In this document: piece by piece, positions 1-63,410 of the stretch
Layout of the letters: the number at the start of each line of letters is the position of its first letter
Numbering within the stretch: the stretch's first letter is position 1
Source of the DNA: Apteryx mantelli
Taxonomy: Eukaryota; Chordata; Aves; Apterygiformes; Apterygidae
Direction: 5' to 3'
Assembly: GCF_036417845.1 (NCBI RefSeq)
Contig: NC_089978.1
Span: 161,693,962 to 161,757,961, forward strand
Length of the DNA: 64,000 nucleotides
Made by a program: the position numbers and the translations under genes
Notes under the pieces: model-generated
Seen by the model: the letters and a program-made list of their open reading frames with translations, nothing else
What the model was told of the DNA's origin: nothing
Database searches by the model: none

Positions 1-3228
<3,228 letters not shown>

Positions 3229-8479: not shown

Positions 8480-9673
8480 TTAATCTTCAATGTTTATAGG
8501 AGCAACAGGATTAAACATTGGTCTCTCCTTCTTTGATTGTATCTTACCATAACTGACTTCAAAATCTTTCTTAGTACCATTCAAAGTTTCTAGAGTCCCA
8601 CTCTTTATATTATATCCTAAAGCAGAGAGTTTTTTAATTCTGTACTGAACAATCTGTGTTGTCAACTCCAGCACCATTGGGGTCTCTCTGATCTGCTCTA
8701 CAGAAATTCCTTCCTTCAATAGTCCCTCAAATCTTTCTTCCAAAATTGGAACAGAATAGTAGAGAAGGGCTGGGCATTTCAGCACTAGCTGTTTTAACTC
8801 TTGATCACTGCACTTAAAGACATTTTTGGAAAAAAGCATACTCTTCTGCATAGTAGTAGGAGTAAGTTGAAAAATAAAACCTTTAAGTTTGGACAGCAGC
8901 TGTAGAACTTCATGGTTAGTGAAATCATTCTTCTGGAGAAATTCCAAGTTCTTCTGGACTGCAGTGGAAGTATTTAATAAAATAAATGGATTTTGGCTCA
9001 ATAACTTCAGTATCCAAATCTTCATATTTGCATCAGAACCTCCTAAACTCAAATAATTTCTCTGTAATGTCTTTATTGTATGTTTGTTTTTCTCAACAGG
9101 ATTGTAAAAAATACTGGGTGCGCTTGTCAAGAACCTAGTGATTATATTATTCTTAAGTCCCAACTCTTGAAAAAACAGAATATTTGCTTTCTGATTCTCA
9201 TGATACTCAGTAGTAAAAAAAGACTCTGGAAATTGCTCTATTAATTTAATCAGCTGTTTTTCATCCTGGCATACTAATTGCCACAGAGCTCTTTGAGAGT
9301 TTATCTCTGCAGGGCTGCAGAGAATTGCCTCTGGCCAACGTTCTAAAATACTGGCGATCATAGTCTCATCTGCTCCCATTTCTCGTAAGATATTAGCAAT
9401 TTCTTTAACATAGGCTACATCCTGGAAAAGGACCCATGCCTTTAGTCTGCGTATTTTCTTAATATCAACTGACAATCTGTAGAGACTCTTGATTATTTTT
9501 TTATTTTCCTCTCTTGATCTGGTATCAGTTGTATAATGGGAATGAGGTAGAACGCTTCTGTTTGTTACTTCAGCCCATAACGATGAAAAATTCAATCCAG
9601 GGTTACAGTACTGAGATCTTGCCAACAGCAGTGTAAATGTATCTTTTGCACTGTGAGCAACTCCTCTCAGCAT
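8480..9673 (-). CDS. MTERF2: MTERF2, mitochondrial transcription termination factor 2
   Basis: An intronless 397-residue coding sequence of the mTERF family (human MTERF2 is 385 residues). These are mitochondrial proteins built of repeated helical mTERF units that bind nucleic acid. MTERF2 (MTERFD3) is reported to bind mtDNA and support mitochondrial transcription and respiration. The repeat signature is visible as regularly spaced proline motifs: ERWPEAI (111-117), EQFPESFF (146-153), TSAPSIF (183-189), SQNPFILL (226-233), [10 protein letters not shown] (298-307) and RETPMVLEL (329-337). The C-terminal [12 protein letters not shown] closely matches the human ending. The first 20 residues are basic and hydroxylated without acids until Asp11, which suits a mitochondrial presequence. 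The frame stays open 31 codons further upstream, but a pyrimidine tract and AG acceptor (plus-strand 9688-9689) lie 14 nt before this ATG, so the upstream part is intron and this ATG, with A at -3, is the start. Confidence 0.94.
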
Positions 9674-9686
9674 CGTGGAGTGCAGC

Positions 9687-9705
9687 ACTACACAGAGAGA
9701 AAAAC
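9687..9705 (-). promoter_or_regulatory. MTERF2: Splice acceptor before the MTERF2 coding exon
   Basis: On the minus strand the sequence reads GTTTTTCTCTCTGTGTAG, then TGCTGCACTCCACG and the ATG. The good pyrimidine tract and AG place the exon start at 9687. This fits a gene with a non-coding first exon and all coding sequence in the second. Confidence 0.8.
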
Positions 9706-10939
9706 AACTATAAGAAAACACATTACATAAGGCACGAATTATACCTCCTAATGTTCTCAGAAGCATTGTATTTAGAACTGAGCTGGCATAAAAAAAACCC
9801 TACTCTCAACAATGTTTTTGGTTAGTAGCAGAAAATTCAGCTTTCAGGCTAGAGGGAAAAAAAAAAAAAGGACTTTTGAAAGGTTAATGTTCTGACTGAA
9901 GCCTCACTGGAACAAGAACATGTGGATGCAGCAGACCTGAAATGAGGGCAGCTCTCTGTCCATACAAACACTTGTAGCCATACAAGAACCAGTCTGCCAT
10001 TTCCTGCAGACTGAGGCTGTTATTACATTACAGCTTGCTAGCTCTACATTTAAAAAAGTTTCATGCAATTTGATCTGACATTAATTCTACTGAATTAATC
10101 AAAAAAAAAAGCTTACACATCTTTCTTAACTCTTCTGAATGTATTTGCTTAATTTCTCAAGCATTGTTTGGACCGTGACTCGTTTCTTTGTGTGTCACAG
10201 AGACCCTGGTGTTCAGTAGCAGGTTATAGCTTAATTGCATTTTGAAATTGTTCTCCTTATAATTAAGGAAAAAAATCCTCCAAACCATCTCTCTATGTAT
10301 GTGTTTTTCACTAGCACAGTTAATTGGGGCTGAATAAGCAGACTGGTATTTTCAGGGAGAAAGCAAGCACACTGTAATGCCTTTCACTTCAGGCCGTCAC
10401 TCGCCTCCCCCAGTACCTACTTTGCTTCGGTTGCCCTTTGCTGAGATGCCTTATTTCTGTCTCCACATAACTTCTGCCGTTGGCAGCCAAGGTCAGGAGG
10501 CAGGGAGTCCTCCTGCGCCCTTTGCAGTAGGTGCGTGGCTGTGCTGAGGTCAAAAGCCAACCACAGGGTAGCTGTGGATAACCAAACCCTGGGTAGCACT
10601 AACAGAGCACGCGGTGTCACGTGATCTGCAAAGGCCAAAGGAGCAGCAGTGATCAAATGCAGAAGGGTATCATCAAGTATCTGTTTAACTTCCTGAATGA
10701 TATTTTTGTAATAAACTTTTGGAAGCAAACAGTATGAAATGGAATTGCTGATCTCTGAAATGCTGGTGCTAATTGCTGCTGCTAGGATCATACTTAAAAT
10801 CACTCTAATTGAAAGTGGGCAAAAAAAAATTCCTAAAAATGTCTTTATTTGACAACTCTATTTACACAGTTGCTTTCATTTCTTCCAAAGTATAGTGTGC
10901 TTCAAAAAATACCCATACGAGCATTAAAGACTTTTTTTT

Positions 10940-18339: not shown

Positions 18340-18363
18340 AACGTGAGGGCTGGCGGTCACGTG
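18340..18363 (+). promoter_or_regulatory. CRY1: E'-box plus E-box pair in the CRY1 promoter
   Basis: AACGTG (18340-18345, the E'-box CACGTT on the other strand) and the perfect E-box CACGTG (18358-18363) are separated by 12 bp. Both are CLOCK-BMAL1 target types. They lie just upstream of GC boxes and a CCAAT box, where proximal Cry1 E-boxes are expected from mammalian work. Confidence 0.65.
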
Positions 18364-18792: not shown

Positions 18793-18950
18793 ATGGGGGT
18801 GAACGCCGTGCACTGGTTCCGCAAGGGGCTGCGGCTCCACGACAACCCGGCGCTGCGGGAGTGCATCCAGGGCGCCGACACGGTCCGCTGCGTCTACATC
18901 CTCGACCCCTGGTTCGCCGGCTCCTCCAACGTGGGCATCAACAGGTGGCG
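18793..18950 (+). CDS. CRY1: CRY1 coding exon 1
   Basis: Residues 1-52 and two bases of Arg53. It begins [20 protein letters not shown], the start of the photolyase-homology domain. Donor CG|GTGAGT. Confidence 0.96.
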
Positions 18951-27900: not shown

Positions 27901-30900
27901 CCAGAGGGATCTTTGTGTATGGAAAGAAGATTGTATTTTGGTTTTGGCTTTTTTTGTTTTGTTTTTGAGAGTCTTGTTACTAGTGAACTCAAGAAGTTGA
28001 AACTGCCCTAGTTTTAATGAAGAGTGATCAAGCAAAGGGTGTTACCTGAAGTATTTGTTTTACTCATGTTGTCTAGGGCTAAATCCTTTGACTTCCCAAC
28101 ATTATTTTTCAGTAGGTGGTATGCTTATTAAGATCTAGTACACTGTGCCTTATCTATGTTTCTTTTTAGGCAGCTTAGTTGTTTGCTGTTTACTGCTATT
28201 ATGCAGTATATCCCAAACACAGTGAGTGTTTTTTTTGTTTGTTTTTTTAAGATGTCTTGGAGTGACTTTTTCATTTTGTTTTCTCCTGTGTACTCTTTGA
28301 CTGGTGTGAACTAGAAACATCTAGTAACGTGTAGTTTCTTTTGTTCATGACAAAAGAAAAAGTTTTAAGTTACTATGGCATTGATAGTTCAGCCTTCAAT
28401 AATGTGTGTTTTCCCCTTTTATTTCAAGGCTTTCATAATCTCAGGAGACCTATATTAAAAATCAGTCTTGCTTGATCATCTAGTCATGGTTGTGTTTCAG
28501 TAAGCAGAGGTTTTTCATTTGTATATTTGATTGAAATTTCCTTTCTATAAGCCAGTTGCTGATAAATTTACTGTTGAGAAGTATTTTATTTTAGTGGTAG
28601 TGTATTTTTTCTAAACCGTAAGAAAATCAAGGGTTTGTGGAGATAACATAGATCTTCCTCTTTACATTTTAGGTTTTGGTTTCTTTCATTTTTTTCAAGT
28701 ATTATGCCATCCACCTTCTTCTTTTTTTCTTTCTTTTTTTTTTTTTTTGGTCCCAACTCTGAGGCTTTGTTAGTTTGCCAGAGAAATGTTCTCCAGTGCT
28801 CCATTGACTGAAAACCTTACTCAAGTTCTTTGCCTCTTCTATAGGAGACAGCACAATAGACTTTACTTTTTTGGCACTGGAGGTCAGGCTTTCAAACTGA
28901 AAACTGTTAGTACTGGTCAGCTGGTGCTCTTGCAGCAGCAACCTTTCTTTTTATGACTTTTCTTCGACTTCTCCCTCTCCCCCCCCTCCCCGAATTCTGC
29001 CTTTGTAGCACCTCTTGCTGCTGTTGTACTGCTCACCACTGGTGCACTGGTAAAGTTGTGGGTTTTCTGCTGTTCTGTTTGAAGAGAGTGCTATTTGCAG
29101 GAGTAACGATCTCATTACATATGCTTTATTCCAGTGTGGTGAAGGTGGGGGGAATTTCAAAATTTATTCAACACACAGTACTGTTTTTTTTCATGGATTC
29201 CAGTATTTTTCCTGATGAATTTACAGGGCTTAAGGTAAAGTAAATTTGGGGGGGCTTTGGTGCATGTGTTTTTGTTTTTCTTAATATGAGCTACCTCTGT
29301 TGCAACTTTTCTGTTAACTGAAGTTTTATTTAGGATCGTATGGTAATGCATAGTTTGTCTCTTGTTGGAATGTGTTGTCTTCAACTTGAAAATGTTAGTC
29401 TGCTATGCTTGCCTCTTAAAAATTTAGCTTGAATGAAAGCTTTTGAATTCAGGATTTGTATAAATTGATCAAAAATAAATACCCATGGCACAAATCAATG
29501 CGACTGAAATTTGAAGCCTTTTGGGCTTAGTTCTGCAGAGATAACCTGATAACTTTTCAATGTAAAGTTGTGCTGGTAAACTTTCCTCTGTCGTAAGGTT
29601 AATGACCATTAATAGCAACAGTAAACAGAAAACTAATTGTCAATGTTACTTCCTGGATTTGTGTTGTACCTTTTTATGTTCCTGCTCCACCGTTCATGCA
29701 GACTTAAATATGTCTTTAAAAACAACACGTCAGCTTTAACTGTCATTCGTGAGGGTTTTTGTTTTTCTTTTATGCAGATTTGATATCATTCAGACCTATA
29801 ATAAAGGATTATCTTCATCAACTTTTGCTTGGATATAATGCTGAAGCAGTCTGTTTACACTGAAGACTGCTGCCAAATATTGACACTGTCTTGGAACATG
29901 TTTATTTGCAAGTAGTTGTTCATTTTGACAGCTTTCCATTCTATTTTCTGTGAGCACCTCATATTTTGAATATTGACTTAGTATTTTTTGAACTTGGAAC
30001 ATATATTAGCTTTCATTTAACCTTTAGTAGACAGAGCTTCTAAATACGGCATAGATCAATGTAACTGATCTGCTACTGTAAATGCTGGAAGCCTTTGTCT
30101 GTCTTTTTTAGAAATAAAGTTCAACTGCAATATATAAATCCTCTCAGAACATTTCAAAAGTGAACTAGAATTTCAGCTCCTACTACAGCAGTTACGTATA
30201 ACTAGAAAAGTAGGTCATTGTGGCAGGGAGTAGTCCAAACAGTCTACTGGTTGCTAGAGCAACGACCTACTTTAAGAAACTATTTTTGTTGATTCATATT
30301 GAAACATTCTACTTGCAAATGGTATAAGGAAATGATCAGGTTATGAGCTATACAGTAATGAAAACTGCAAAGTTCCTAGGGTTTTTTTTTGTTTGTGGGG
30401 GGTTTGGGGGTACTTTTTTTTCCCCATACCCCTTGATCTTGAAGCATGGGGATTAAAGCAAGTAAAGTTTGTTTTTCGGTTTGACCTCTAGTGGGGAATA
30501 CCTCTTCTTCCTTGAAGGTCTTGTATAGCAATAATACTTACTTAGCAATGGTGATTAAGTTTCCAATTCAGAGGCTACAAATGCTCCCCTGTCATTTTTG
30601 GCTATAGAAATAACCTCAGAGTAAAGGAATAAATATGTGTGTGTGGGATACATATACATATATGTATAAATAATTTTTTTTTTTGTTTTTCCTAAGAAGC
30701 AGAACTTTTCTCTAGAATGCTCATGGTTTCTGACTGCTAGATATTCAATTGTTCTTCTTGTTTTTGACCACTCTGTCTTCAACAAAGATTAGCAGCCTTC
30801 AGGAAGGTGGTGTTGGTTCCCCATCCCTAACTTTTTTTGTTCTTAGCTGGCAACCTTCCCTTCTGCCTCCCCCAACCCTTCCGTGTTGCAACTAATTCTG

Positions 30901-39900: not shown

Positions 39901-42900
39901 GCCCAGTCGACATGTGCTTATGTCAGTGCCAACAGCATCATAAAGCAGGAGAAACCAGCAATGGGTTTGAGCAGATCCAGATGAAAATTATATAGTTATT
40001 CAAGAAAAGTATTATGGAGGGAACCACCTGTCCCTATTCTGCAGTGTCCAGGGAGTTACAGGAAGTCCAGGGAAAGGATGTGCATCTAGAGACCCCCCCA
40101 TCGCCTTCCTTCCTGGCTGGCTACCACGGAAAGTGTTCCTTTCTCCTCTCTTTGCTTTTGTTTTTATTTCTTCCCAAAGCCAGCTTTCAACATTAGAGTC
40201 AATGTCTGTCGTCAACTATGGAAGCTGTTAATAAATCTTTGTGCATGTGAACCTCCTTTTTTGACAATCTCTTTTTTTTCTGGAAGACTTGCAGATTTGA
40301 AGCACCCTTCCCCCCCCCCTTTTTTTTCCTTGTTTGTTTGTTCATTAAATAATTCGGGGGGGATTATAGCCAAAATGCATGAAGGTTTCTGTTATAAAGA
40401 GGGCTGTTTTTATAAATGAAGGCCAGAGGGATTGTCATCTAGTCTCACCTCTGATATGCTGTTTTCAATAATAGTTTAGGCTGCAGTGTTGTAAGAGGGA
40501 CTTGCATTAAGTTTAGTAATAGTAGCATGCCAACAGCTGATTGTCTGCTATGTTGTTGTGGTATGCTTTTTCTCTTTAGACTGACAGTATACTTCTAGTT
40601 CTAGTTAAGACTTGATTATGTTTTAATACATTCCAAAATTAAATGTAGCATTGAGGTGAAAATTGAAATGACAATGCAGTTTAGTTTTCTGAACTAGGTA
40701 TCATTGAGTATATAATATGCCATTAAACTACTCTAAGCTAAGCGTTATTAGGATGTTAACATGAATGTGTGAACAAAAGTCTGCAAAGTTCTGTTTGATT
40801 ATTCCTTTTAGTTCCCTTTTCCTATTTTAGTTCCCTTTTCCTATTTTAAAGTTGTCTGGTCTGCTTCAGAAAGTAATGTGGTTTTTTTACAATTCTTTGC
40901 AGATTTCTACTTCAGTGTCTTGAGGATCTTGATGCCAATCTACGGAAACTGAATTCTCGCTTGTTTGTTATTCGTGGACAGCCAGCAGATGTTTTCCCCA
41001 GACTTTTTAAGGTAAATGCTAGAAATATGTACAATTAAAATATTAAATTCTTTTTTTCTCTTTGCTTCTGCCCATAAACGTGACTGTCATACTGGTTTCA
41101 GCTAGGAATATTTCTTGTTCTAATACACTTTAACACAAGTTCTGTGATATGTGAACAATTAACAATATCCTTGCTGCAGTTTCCCTTGCAGGTTATTTTT
41201 TGTTAAATTTGGGGCAGGGGAAGGAAGGGTTCCCTCTAACATGCTTATCGCCAACTAAACTGAACAGTCTTAGACTTCAGTTTTGTGTTTCTTTTCTCTC
41301 CAGAAATAAAAGCAATTTCTAATGGTTTGCTAAGTGTAGGTAAACTGTATATTATTAAGTTTTCCTTCCAGGTGCCTTTTGAAATACTGAAAAATGATTT
41401 TGCACAGTTGAATTCAGGTTCAAAGCCTGACCTCTAAAAACAATGCTTTATTTAGGCCAAATCTCTGCTGTGGTTTGCTTTTTTAACCAATAAAATGGTT
41501 TGTTTTGATAGGCTTTTATCTGGTAATAGACTTGCTGGAAAGCAGGGTTACCTCTGTTCCCCTTTTAAGTGTTATTCTTGCCTAGTTTCAGAGGAAGGAT
41601 TTCTGCATATCTGACTTCTTTTTTGATCTTTTTCTGAAGTAGTACATAACTGAAAACTCGCAATTGTTCTTGACCTAGAGAAACAGTGAAAGCTGAACCT
41701 AAGATTGAAAATTCTCAACTTTAATTTGATTAGATACCTCTTCTTCGCAGGCTAACTGTTTAAGCTCATCAAAAAGTGATTTCTGGTCAAGGAAGTTAAG
41801 GCTTTTGTGGGAAAGGCTCTTATTATTGAACAAATTAAAACTGTCGAAGATTGTTACTGATATTAGATTTGTTTTCCCTGGTCAATAGTGTGTTTAAGGC
41901 AACAGTATTACACTACTATTGTAAAAAATGAACACTTTGCAAATTGATTCTTAAAGTTCTTGCAGAATGACTGGATTGAGGTGACTGAGACAAGCAAGAC
42001 TGTGGTGGTGGTGGGGAGGGGAATATCTGTGTTTTCAAAGAGACTACCTATTCAATAATTTCATTCACAAGTTTTCAACACCAAACTATGGAAGGTCTTC
42101 AAGATTTTAGTCTTTATTCTCATGTTTTAATTGTGAAGTTCTAATTGGATGATATTCTAACTGGTCTGTTTTTGATTTCCAATCGGTAAAGAATTTCCTG
42201 CAGGAGTATGTGGCATTAGCTGCTGCTCACAGCAGCACTTGGATATTCAAGGTGACTTTTTCTTCCTGCCAGTTTGGTTAAATTCCATTTAAAGAGGCGC
42301 AAAGATCTTGTGGTTGCTATCATCTCAGGTTCTGGTACCATGTCAGAATTGTGGCACTTTATATAGCTTGTTTGGGGTTTTTCCTGCTTCTTATTGGTAG
42401 CTACATTAGCATTGCCTTAACATCTTAGTAACTGTTATGCATGTTATTTTTTGGATTTGAGTCATCTGGGACAAGTTTTTCTAAATTGTTTTGATGAACA
42501 CTTTGACAGTTCCTGTTTCAGACTTTTAGTACTAGGCTGATCTATTTACATTTAACTGCACAGGAGATTACTGCATCTTCAGAACATTATTTTAGTGCTA
42601 AGAAGGTAATGAAAATAACTTGTTGTGCAGATAGTGCATAGCATTCAAATAAGAATGTTTGTGTCTGTTCTGGTTCCTCAAAATACCGAAAAGTGTCTTT
42701 ATCATCTGTATTTTAGTTGATTGTAGGGCTTTTCAGGACAGCATGCTCTAACTTCAGACAAGTAAGAAGCATGTGCTTAAGCTTCTAAGGACTACTTTAA
42801 CTTCTGACAGAAGACTACCAGAAACATGCATCTATCTTATGTAAATAATCTCACAGGCCTTTTTTGCCTGAGCTGTACCTGTGTATCAGGCATGTGCAGC

Positions 42901-58890: not shown

Positions 58891-59895
58891 GTATATACAG
58901 ATACATGTGTCTTTTTGTGTATGCTATTGCTCCGGTATATATTTCCTAACAAAATTATTTGAAAAAAAAAATAAGGGAGATGTAATGTTCAGACTTGGTA
59001 TAGTTAATTGTACATGGCTTCTAGTTTGACTTTCACTCAGGTTTCATGATACTGAAACAAGATGCTGTCCAAATTATTTGGCTGTTTTTATTGAAATTGT
59101 ATGTGTGTATGTAGTCTTGCATTAAATATTTTTTCCCAATCAAATTCATTAGGTGTTTCTGCAAAATTTAAATTGTATGTGTTTTTTTGCTATATCTATC
59201 ATTTGCTTGATAGCCTGGCATTGTTTCCTGCAGCTGGTTTGCTGCTCTTCAAGGATGCTGACTTCTAAAAATGCATCATGTTTATTGGCCACTATGTCAA
59301 AACTCTGCCTCTATCTGAAATGTTTAAAGAAATTGTTTATAATGTTTTCTCAGAATGTTAAGATCTCTGAAGAAACAGTCTGAATTAATACATTTACATA
59401 AAACTAGGTCAATTGTCCACTTCAGTGGATGTACAAATTATTCTCACGTGTGAGGAATTAATTATCTGTTCTTAGTATCATGTGATTGACATGGGGCACT
59501 TGGAGATAAAATTCAGACCAGATTCATGGGTTGACAATATGTGCAGCAGGACAAGCTGCCATGATTCTGTCTATTCATAGATTTTTAGATAATAGTTAAT
59601 GTAAATATCTTTGCATACTGATTTGGGCACCATAGCAAAATTAAAAGTCCTACTAAAAAATACAGGTATATGCATTAAAGCAGAGGATCTTTGACTGGTC
59701 TTCAAGAAAAAACCTCAACACTGAAAATGGAGAAACAGATGTTAAGTATTTTCCACAGGTCAATCCAAGCAGAATGGAGAGGTTTCCTGGTAACATACAT
59801 AAACCAACAGATTACACAATTCTCTTGCTCATTTCAGTAATCTAAAAAAGGAGAGGTTAGACCAGAGGCCTATAATGTTTTAGGAAATGTTTTAT
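58891..59895. other. 3' flank of CRY1
   Basis: About 1 kb of AT-rich flank with no gene. It contains AAACTAGGTCA (59401-59411, a perfect RORE) and the E-box CACGTG (59445-59450) within 50 bp. Confidence 0.6.
59401..59450 (+). promoter_or_regulatory. RORE and E-box pair downstream of CRY1
   Basis: AAACTAGGTCA matches WAWNTRGGTCA at every position, and CACGTG follows 33 bp later. The pair lies about 0.5 kb past the CRY1 poly(A) signal and just before the CR1 insertion. Confidence 0.4.
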
Positions 59896-60629: not shown

Positions 60630-61430
60630 ATCACCTCTCTGAAATGCCTGTACACCAATGCACGCAGCTTGGGGAACAAACAGGAAGAACTAGAGATATG
60701 TGTGCGGTCGCAGGGCCATGATCTCATTGCCGTTACAGAGACATGGTGGGATAGCTCGCATGACTGGAGTGCCGTCATGGATGGCTACGTGCTTTTTAGG
60801 AAAGACAGGCCAGGAAAGCGAGGTGGTGGAGTTGCTCTTTAGGTGAGAGAGCAACTGGAATGTATTGAGCTGTGCCTAGGGGTGGATGAAGAGCGAGTTG
60901 AGTGCTTATGGGTAAGGATCAAAGGGCAGGCTAGCATGGGTGACACTGTTGTGGGTGTTTACTACAGGCCACCTGATCAGGATGAGGAAGTCGATGAGGC
61001 CTTCTACAGACAGCTGGAAGTAGCCTCTGGTTCTCATGGGGGACTTCAACCACCCCGATATCTGCTGGAAAGACAACACAGCTAGGCACAAACAGTCCCA
61101 GAGGTTCCTGCAGAGCATTGGTGACAACTTCTTGACCCAGGTGGTGGAGGAGCCAACAAGGAGAGGTGTGCTGCTGGACCTCGTACTAACAAACAAAGAA
61201 GGACTGGTGGAAGATGTGAAGGTCGGGGGCAGCCTTGGCTGCAGTGACCACGAGATGGTGGAGTTCAGGATCCTGCGAGGAGGAGGCAGGGCACCAAGTA
61301 GGATCGCAACCCTGGACTTCAGGAGAGCAAACTTTGGCCTCTTCAGGGACCTACTTGGAGTAATCCCATGGGTGAGGGCCCTAGAAGGAAGGGGGGTCCA
61401 AGAGAGCTGGTTAATATTCAAACATCACTT
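60630..61430 (+). pseudogene. CR1 ORF2 endonuclease remnant
   Basis: APE-type endonuclease motifs in order: [38 protein letters not shown] (from 61039) and CSDHEMV (61240-61260). An in-frame TAG at 60840-60842 and a frameshift near 61.03 kb, between GVYYRPP and GDFNHP, break it. Confidence 0.9.
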
Positions 61431-63410
61431 CCTCCAGGCTCAAGAGCGGTGCATCCCTATGAGTAGGAAGTCAAGCAAAGGAGGCAGGAGACCTGCATGG
61501 ATGAGCAAGGAGCTCCTGGCAAAACTCAACCAGAAGAAGGAAGTATACAGAAAGTGGAAAGGGGGACAGGCCACTTGGGAGGAATATAGGAACACTGTTA
61601 GAGTATGCAGGGATGCGACGAGGAAGGCTAAGGCCCGTTTGGAATTAAATCTGGCTAGAGATGTCAAGGACAGCAAGAAGGGCTTCTTCAAATACATCAG
61701 CAGCAAGAGGAAGACTAGGGAAAATGTGGGCCCTTTGCTGAATGGGGTGGGTGCCCTGGTGACGAAGGATGCAGAGAAGGCAGAGTTACTGAATGCCTTC
61801 TTTGCTTCAGTCTTTACTGCTCAGGCCAGCCCTCAGGAACCCCAGACCCTGGAGGCAAGAGAGAAAGTCTGGAGGAAGGAAGACTTTCCCTTGGTGGAGG
61901 AGGAGTGGGTTAGAGATCATTTAAGCAAACTTGACACCCACAAATCCATGGGCCCTGATGGGATGCACCCACGAGTGCTGAGGGAGCTGGCGGATGTCAT
62001 TGCTAAGCCACTCTCCATCATCTTTGAAAGGTCATGAAGGACAGGAGAGGTGCCTGAAGACTGGAAGAAAGCCAATGTCACCCCAGTCTTCAAAAAGGGC
62101 AAGAAGGAGGACCCAGGGAACTACAGGCCAGTCAGCCTCACCTCCATCCCTGGAAAGGTGATGGAGCAGCTCATCCTGGAAGCCATCTCCAAGCATGTGG
62201 AGGACAAGAAGGTGATCAGGAGTAGTCAGCATGGCTTCACCAAGGGGAAATCATGCCTAACCAATCTGATAGCCTTCTATGATGGAATGACTGGCTGGGT
62301 AGATGAGGGGAGAGCAGTGGATGTTGTCTACCTAGACTTCAGCAAGGCTTTTGACACTGTCTCCCATAGCATCCTCATAGACAAGCTCAGGAAGTGTGGG
62401 TTAGATGAGTGGACAGTGAGGTGGATTGAGAACTGGCTGAATGGCAGAGCTCAGAGAGTTGTGATCAGTGGCACAGAGTCTAGTTGGAGGCCTGTAGCTA
62501 GCGGTTTCCCCCAGGGGTCAGTCCTGGGCCCAGTCTTGTTCAACTTCTTCATCAATGACCTGGATGAAGGGACAGAGTGCACCCTCAGCAAGTTTGCTGC
62601 TGATACAAAACTGGGAGGAGCGGCCGATACACCAGAGGGCTGTGCTGCCATTCAGAGAGACCTGGACAGGCTGGAGAGGTGGGCGGAGAGGAACCTCATG
62701 AAGTTCAACAAAGGCAAGTGCAGGGTCCTGCACCTGGGGAGGAATAACCCCATGCGCCAGTACAGGTTGGGGGTTGACCTGCTGGAAAGCAGCTCTGCTG
62801 AGAAGGACCGGGGAGTGCTGGTGGACACCAAGTTAAGCATGAGGCAGCAATGTGCCCTTGTGGCCAAGAAGGCCAATGGTATCCTGGGGTGCATCAGGAA
62901 GAGCGTTGCCAGCAGGTCGAGGGAGGTGATTCTCCCCCTCTACTCAGCCCTGGTGAGGCCACATCTGGAGTACTGCGTCCAGTTCTGGGCTCCCCAGTAC
63001 AAGAGGGATGAGGCACTACTGGAGCAAGTCCAGCGAAGGGCTACAAAGATGATTAGGGGACTGGAGCATCTCTCTTATGAGGAAAGGCTGAGAGAGCTGG
63101 GCCTGTTTAGCCTAGAGAAGAGAAGGCTGAGAGGAGATCTTATCAATGTGTACAAGTATCTGAAGGGAGGGTGTCGAGAGGATGGGACCAGACTCTTTTC
63201 AGTGGTGCCCAGCGACAGGACACGCGAGGCAACGGGCACAAACTGAAACACAGACAATTCCATCTGAACATGAGGAAAAACTTTTTCACTGTGAGGGTGA
63301 CAGAGCACTGGAACAGGTTGCCCAGAGAGGTGGTGGAGTCTCCTTCTCTGGAGATATTCAAAACACACCTGGACGCAATCCTGTGCAATGTGCTCTAGGT
63401 GACCCTGCTT
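61430..63410 (+). pseudogene. CR1 ORF2 reverse transcriptase remnant
   Basis: Reverse transcriptase of the CR1 clade. [13 protein letters not shown] is followed by a TGA stop (62035-62037), then [32 protein letters not shown] (from 62320), [13 protein letters not shown] and the catalytic block. That block reads FAADTKL where the family has FADDTKL: the first of the two metal-binding aspartates is alanine (GCT at 62599-62601). The frame shifts near 63.2 kb before the C-terminal RVTEHWNRLPREVVESPSLE region. Confidence 0.92.

Follow-up and report, generated by a model that had tools for sequence, protein, structure and literature searches.

An inverted pair of ROR/REV-ERB elements sharing a base with an X-box-like site in kiwi CRY1 intron 1, probably a counterpart of the mouse Cry1 enhancer

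The CRY1 locus and its first intron

We studied a 64-kb window of the kiwi genome (C1:161693962-161757961; positions without a contig name are those of this window), which belongs to an assembly of 1.504 Gb in 408 contigs. Peptide matching, conducted exon by exon with CRY1 queries, identified the CRY1 exons on the plus strand between 18793 (MGVNAVHWF) and about 53.5 kb, where a tail exon lies. The coding part of exon 1 (MGVNAVHWF...) was assigned to 18793-18950 by translation match, its end being set by the donor GTGAGT, and exon 2 was found to begin at 40903, which gives an intron 1 of 21952 bp on the plus strand (18951-40902). These bounds place the motif module described below (30207-30273) inside CRY1 intron 1, as an earlier reading of the bare DNA letters (the sequence-only reading) had claimed. 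The module is located 51% along the intron and 11.4 kb from the ATG.

An E'-box on the minus strand (18340-18345) and a CACGTG E-box (18358-18363) lie approximately 430 bp before the ATG, as expected for the promoter of a CLOCK:BMAL1 target. On the flank of the gene, the open frames at 2914-3228 (plus strand) and 8480-9799 (minus strand) are presumably TMEM263 and MTERF2, neighbours of CRY1 in human. Long reverse-transcriptase-like open frames, which we take to be CR1-like, occupy 61024-63246, and a similar frame is found in locus L023.

Chicken primers were also compared with the window. The CRY1 reverse primer printed in PMC10816401 matched it at 20 of 20 bases, which, like the CR1-like frames, points to a bird or other reptile. 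The forward primer had no match in the unspliced window DNA at up to 3 mismatches, because it spans the exon 1-2 junction, from which it differs at two bases as counted by eye.

Two facing RREs and an X-box-like site

The plus strand carries an RRE, the element recognised by ROR and REV-ERB, at 30207-30217 (RRE1, AAAGTAGGTCA), which is exact to WAWNTRGGTCA. A second copy (RRE2, AAAGTAGGTCG) lies on the minus strand at 30263-30273 and shows one mismatch, at the last base of the AGGTCA half-site. Both elements agree with the sequence-only reading, which had listed one perfect and one near-perfect RRE in opposite orientations. The 10-bp inverted repeat that it had seen between them was found to extend to 14 nt, with 13 of 14 bases matching between the left arm (30207-30220, plus strand) and the right arm (30260-30273), and either strand of the whole module (30207-30273) can be represented as an imperfect hairpin. 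Arms of this length are no rarity here: in a 23-kb stretch we counted 17 inverted repeats, three of them longer than the 14-nt arms of the RREs.

Between the two RREs lies an RFX X-box-like site (GTTGCTAGAGCAAC, 30250-30263), consisting of the inverted half-sites GTTGCT and AGCAAC at a distance of 2 bp. Such a site falls within the X-box class, which has inverted GTTGCY/RGCAAC half-sites 0-3 bp apart. It had been described as perfectly symmetric; this is true of its six-base arms, but the central AG breaks the symmetry, leaving 12 of 14 bases symmetric. Compared with the RFX consensus GTTGCYNNRGCAAC, the site shares the inverted half-sites and their 2-bp distance, whereas its centre is AG instead of AT and it is fused to an RRE. 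The proposed one-base overlap was confirmed: the X-box-like site and RRE2 have base 30263 in common, and this is the very position at which RRE2 departs from AGGTCA. A further D-box-like match (TTACGTAT, 30192-30199, plus strand) agrees with the D-box consensus TTAYGTAA at 7 of 8 bases and ends 7 bases before RRE1; it is weak and may have arisen by chance.

RRE pairs across the genome and at BMAL1

The whole 1.5-Gb genome was searched for copies of the 9-mer AAAGTAGGT lying 25-55 bp apart, a word that was picked after the CRY1 and BMAL1 loci had both been seen. Six places were identified, 2 face to face, 4 tandem and none back to back, against 8, 9 and 4 places, respectively, for the reversed control. 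Close pairs of this word are not over-represented genome-wide, and the argument therefore rests on their location. One of the two face-to-face pairs is the CRY1 module; the other, at C1:9468575, has the half-sites AGGTTG and AGGTGA, which are not RREs. One of the tandem pairs (C4:31366686) is located 34 kb upstream of exons that match BMAL1 bHLH/PAS at 73-96%, on the same strand. Thus, two of the six close pairs are found at CRY1 and BMAL1, both of them core clock genes with known control by RREs.

The BMAL1 pair reads AAAGTAGGTTA and then, 42 bp on from start to start, AAAGTAGGTCA. As at CRY1, both copies contain the AAAGTAGGT core, and each locus holds one perfect RRE and one copy changed at a single base. 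However, the BMAL1 copies are arranged in tandem whereas those of CRY1 face each other, and the 3-kb BMAL1 locus holds no GTTGCYNNRGCAAC X-box, in contrast to the CRY1 module with its X-box-like site. The available text of PMC3066191 shows that a human BMAL1 probe carries the same 11-mer, AAAGTAGGTCA, as RRE1, and a word search of the literature found the letters of the BMAL1 variant copy in 13 papers. A chicken BMAL1 forward primer was found letter for letter at the C4:31366686 locus; its 17-mer occurs at three genome places (this locus, C27 and C31), and the full 20-mer is present only at the BMAL1 locus of these three. With up to 4 mismatches allowed, the 3-kb BMAL1 locus gave no match to the reverse primer. 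Another tandem pair, on C2, was set aside as a candidate, as it sits in a small local repeat where no gene was recognised.

A probable counterpart of the mouse Cry1 intron-1 enhancer

An RRE enhancer in intron 1 of mouse Cry1, at +26 kb, was reportedly described by Ukai-Tadenuma 2011, as cited by others, and by Mermet 2018. The available text of PMC5900709 describes, in Cry1 intron 1 and 26 kb from the start, a site that holds an RRE and is bound by REV-ERBalpha and RORgamma; this site contacts the promoter rhythmically, and a 300-bp deletion there shortens the free-running period by 15 min. Deletion of both intronic Cry1 RREs led to a 3.7-h phase advance, according to work cited in PMC3489864 (its ref 38) and in so far as that text was available. 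Intronic RRE control of Cry1 also appears in the accessible portions of PMC9399252 and PMC6238625. These sources, PMC5900709 and PMC3489864 in particular, agree with the statement of the sequence-only reading that intronic RREs delay the phase of Cry1 in mouse.

The kiwi module resembles this enhancer in that it lies in CRY1 intron 1, contains at least one exact RRE and would follow ROR/REV-ERB logic. More than one RRE is reported for mouse ("both of the RREs" in the accessible portion of PMC3489864); in kiwi the second copy carries one mismatch, and the second BMAL1 copy likewise carries one change. The module differs in distance, with 11.4 kb from the ATG against +26 kb in mouse. On the simplest reading it is probably the counterpart of the mouse Cry1 intron-1 enhancer, an orthology proposed by analogy. 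We consider it likely that 30207-30273 forms the core of a CRY1 intron-1 ROR/REV-ERB enhancer that delays CRY1 transcription. The gene, the intron, the motif letters, their pairing, the comparison with BMAL1 and the RREs of mouse intron 1 together argue well for the ROR/REV-ERB interpretation that had been made from the letters. Against it, RRE2 is imperfect, and a position in intron 1 proves nothing by itself.

If the module works as such an enhancer, activation of CRY1 by ROR and its repression by REV-ERB would fall at opposite times of day, with RRE1 as the stronger and RRE2 as the weaker site of action. Compared with genes under E-box control only, CRY1 would thereby be transcribed later, and the activity of the element would be rhythmic. 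By analogy with mouse, the module may contact the CRY1 promoter about 11 kb upstream.

Several searches with the letters of the element gave null results. Exact words of 17-19 bases, used in an orthologue search, matched 0 viral contigs and 3 bacterial ones among the genome contigs, which we took as chance. In a word search of the literature, 60 papers contained one of five words, six words of 14-15 letters from the element did not occur, and ChIP at Cry1 gave no match. A clock enhancer at this place is not new in kind. Its interest is that CRY1 timing in mouse depends on an intronic RRE enhancer, so that a bird-like counterpart would suggest a delay circuit common to amniotes. The compact and legible core would also offer a small target for testing.

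A tentative link between the X-box-like site and RFX factors

The new part of the proposal is the RFX link, for which one good motif speaks. We tentatively suggest, at somewhat less than even chances, that the X-box recruits RFX in cells having these factors, and that it is bound there and matters. The available text of PMC10317116 reports that RFX motifs are enriched in H3K27ac regions of the SCN, which makes such a link plausible and is not evidence for the site at 30250-30263 itself. RFX motifs are likewise enriched at ZFHX3-bound sites of the SCN, and the Cry1 rhythm is unaltered on loss of ZFHX3, in the accessible part of PMC11928027. A conserved and bound X-box would give cell identity a direct route to tune the phase of the clock.

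We give even odds to the alternative that the RREs work and the X-box is accidental, either unbound by RFX or bound to no consequence, an alternative that is compatible with the RRE enhancer. The X-box is a single site, and its class shows no clear excess genome-wide: the GTTGCYNNRGCAAC type occurs at 632 places in the 1.5-Gb genome, compared with 480 places for a permuted palindrome and 1202 for the same permuted palindrome read backwards, and enrichment of the X-box as such was therefore rejected. With bases treated as independent and GC assumed to be 0.41, the estimate is 211 places. The reversed control of the pattern itself gives 36, a figure that we did not rely on because this control contains a CpG.

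The fused X-box/RRE arrangement was found in the genome at the CRY1 module and at one other place, C1:149898006, where GTTGCTTCAGCAAT runs into AAACTAGGTCA, an RRE that is exact on the minus strand, and another TGACCTA starts 20 bp after the start of this RRE. Inspection by eye of the 14 longest open frames in the 60 kb around this place revealed no clock gene, and no report of RFX at CRY1 was found among the literature matches listed, in a search with most subscription journals outside its range. We also asked whether RFX sites and RREs form a recurrent grammar. A search for X-boxes with a minus-strand RRE no more than 30 bp downstream, a pattern that excludes the one-base overlap and hence the CRY1 module, identified 2 other places (C3 and C7), compared with 1 for the reversed control, and this candidate was rejected. 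On the other side, the 64 kb contain no second site of this kind, the CRY1 X-box is positioned exactly on the module, and the RFX motif enrichments in the SCN noted above also speak against an accidental X-box.

If RFX does bind, the shared base 30263 suggests competition between the X-box and RRE2, as far as the letters can indicate. A perfect X-box arm would require C at this base, whereas a perfect RRE2 would require T, and the compromise in the sequence would keep the RFX site strong and leave RRE2 weakened. Bound RFX would then block ROR and REV-ERB at RRE2 and leave RRE1 free, such that the CRY1 delay would depend on a single RRE in RFX-rich cells (SCN, pineal and ciliated cells) and on both RREs in other tissues. 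We regard it as unlikely that the X-box and RRE2 act as a single switch with overlapping sites in this way, giving a tissue-dependent phase of CRY1.

Chance expectation in the window and in simulated introns

The enhancer reading had also to be weighed against the alternative that short motifs have come together by chance in an AT-rich intron and form no working enhancer, which we hold to be quite unlikely. Taken singly, the motifs offer little resistance to it. Two exact RREs were seen in the 64-kb window against 1.74 expected, and 51 of 100 shuffles held at least 2, so that a lone exact RRE is at chance level in a window of this size. When one mismatch was allowed, 37 RREs were counted, with four pairs starting within 70 bp of each other, one of which is another inverted near-RRE pair (22161/22219); loose pairs are common in the window, and only the 30207/30263 pair includes an exact RRE. 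Sites matching the X-box pattern GTTGCCATGGCAAC at up to 3 mismatches numbered 3, against 2.59 expected. Scored against GTTGCYNNRGCAAC, however, 30250-30263 was the only site in 64 kb at one mismatch or fewer.

We then simulated 1500 introns from the second-order base statistics of CRY1 intron 1, which contained 722 exact RREs and 3 exact X-boxes in total. Of the 1500 introns, 26 held an exact RRE within 70 bp of an inverted copy with no more than one mismatch, and 48 held such a pair when either orientation was accepted. These frequencies favour chance, as do the abundance of the X-box class, which is about that of permuted palindromes, and the fact that the motif names were chosen after looking. 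By comparison, none of the 1500 introns combined an exact RRE and an exact X-box within 70 bp, and 1 did so when the X-box was allowed one mismatch. The genome-wide count corresponds to one X-box per 2.4 Mb, or 0.009 per intron of the size of CRY1 intron 1, and at this density 5.9e-5 X-boxes are expected in the 70 bp around any one point, for one motif taken singly out of many that could be named. This real-genome figure is safer than the simulation, because X-boxes were rarer in the simulated introns than in the real genome. Moreover, CRY1 is a gene whose intronic RREs are known to work, which further argues against chance. By the loosest tests the RRE and the X-box are each unremarkable alone; together they are notable.

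A hairpin RNA or mobile element

We consider it very improbable that the inverted repeat is instead an intronic hairpin RNA or the ends of a small transposon. The module does fold better than its shuffles, both as RNA (z of -3.38 on the plus and -3.47 on the minus strand) and as DNA (z of -3.15), but in a 150-base context z was only -1.73, two facing RREs form such a stem by themselves, and the window had 0 Rfam matches at the gathering threshold, so that a hairpin RNA or microRNA was rejected. Transposon ends were rejected on copy number, as a terminal-inverted-repeat element is expected in more than one copy and this one is single: a 201-base query matched the genome once at E up to 10, in a search that skips very common words, and the pair of 10-bp arms also occurred once.

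A second motif group beyond the CRY1 coding exons

A separate motif group was observed at 59394-59450, about 6 kb beyond the last CRY1 coding exon found. It comprises the second exact RRE of the window (AAACTAGGTCA, 59401-59411) and a CACGTG E-box (59445-59450) within 50 bp, together with a match to the D-box TTAYGTAA (59394-59401) that overlaps the RRE by one base. In mouse, Cry1 has a secondary contact peak near its 3' end, according to the available text of PMC5900709.
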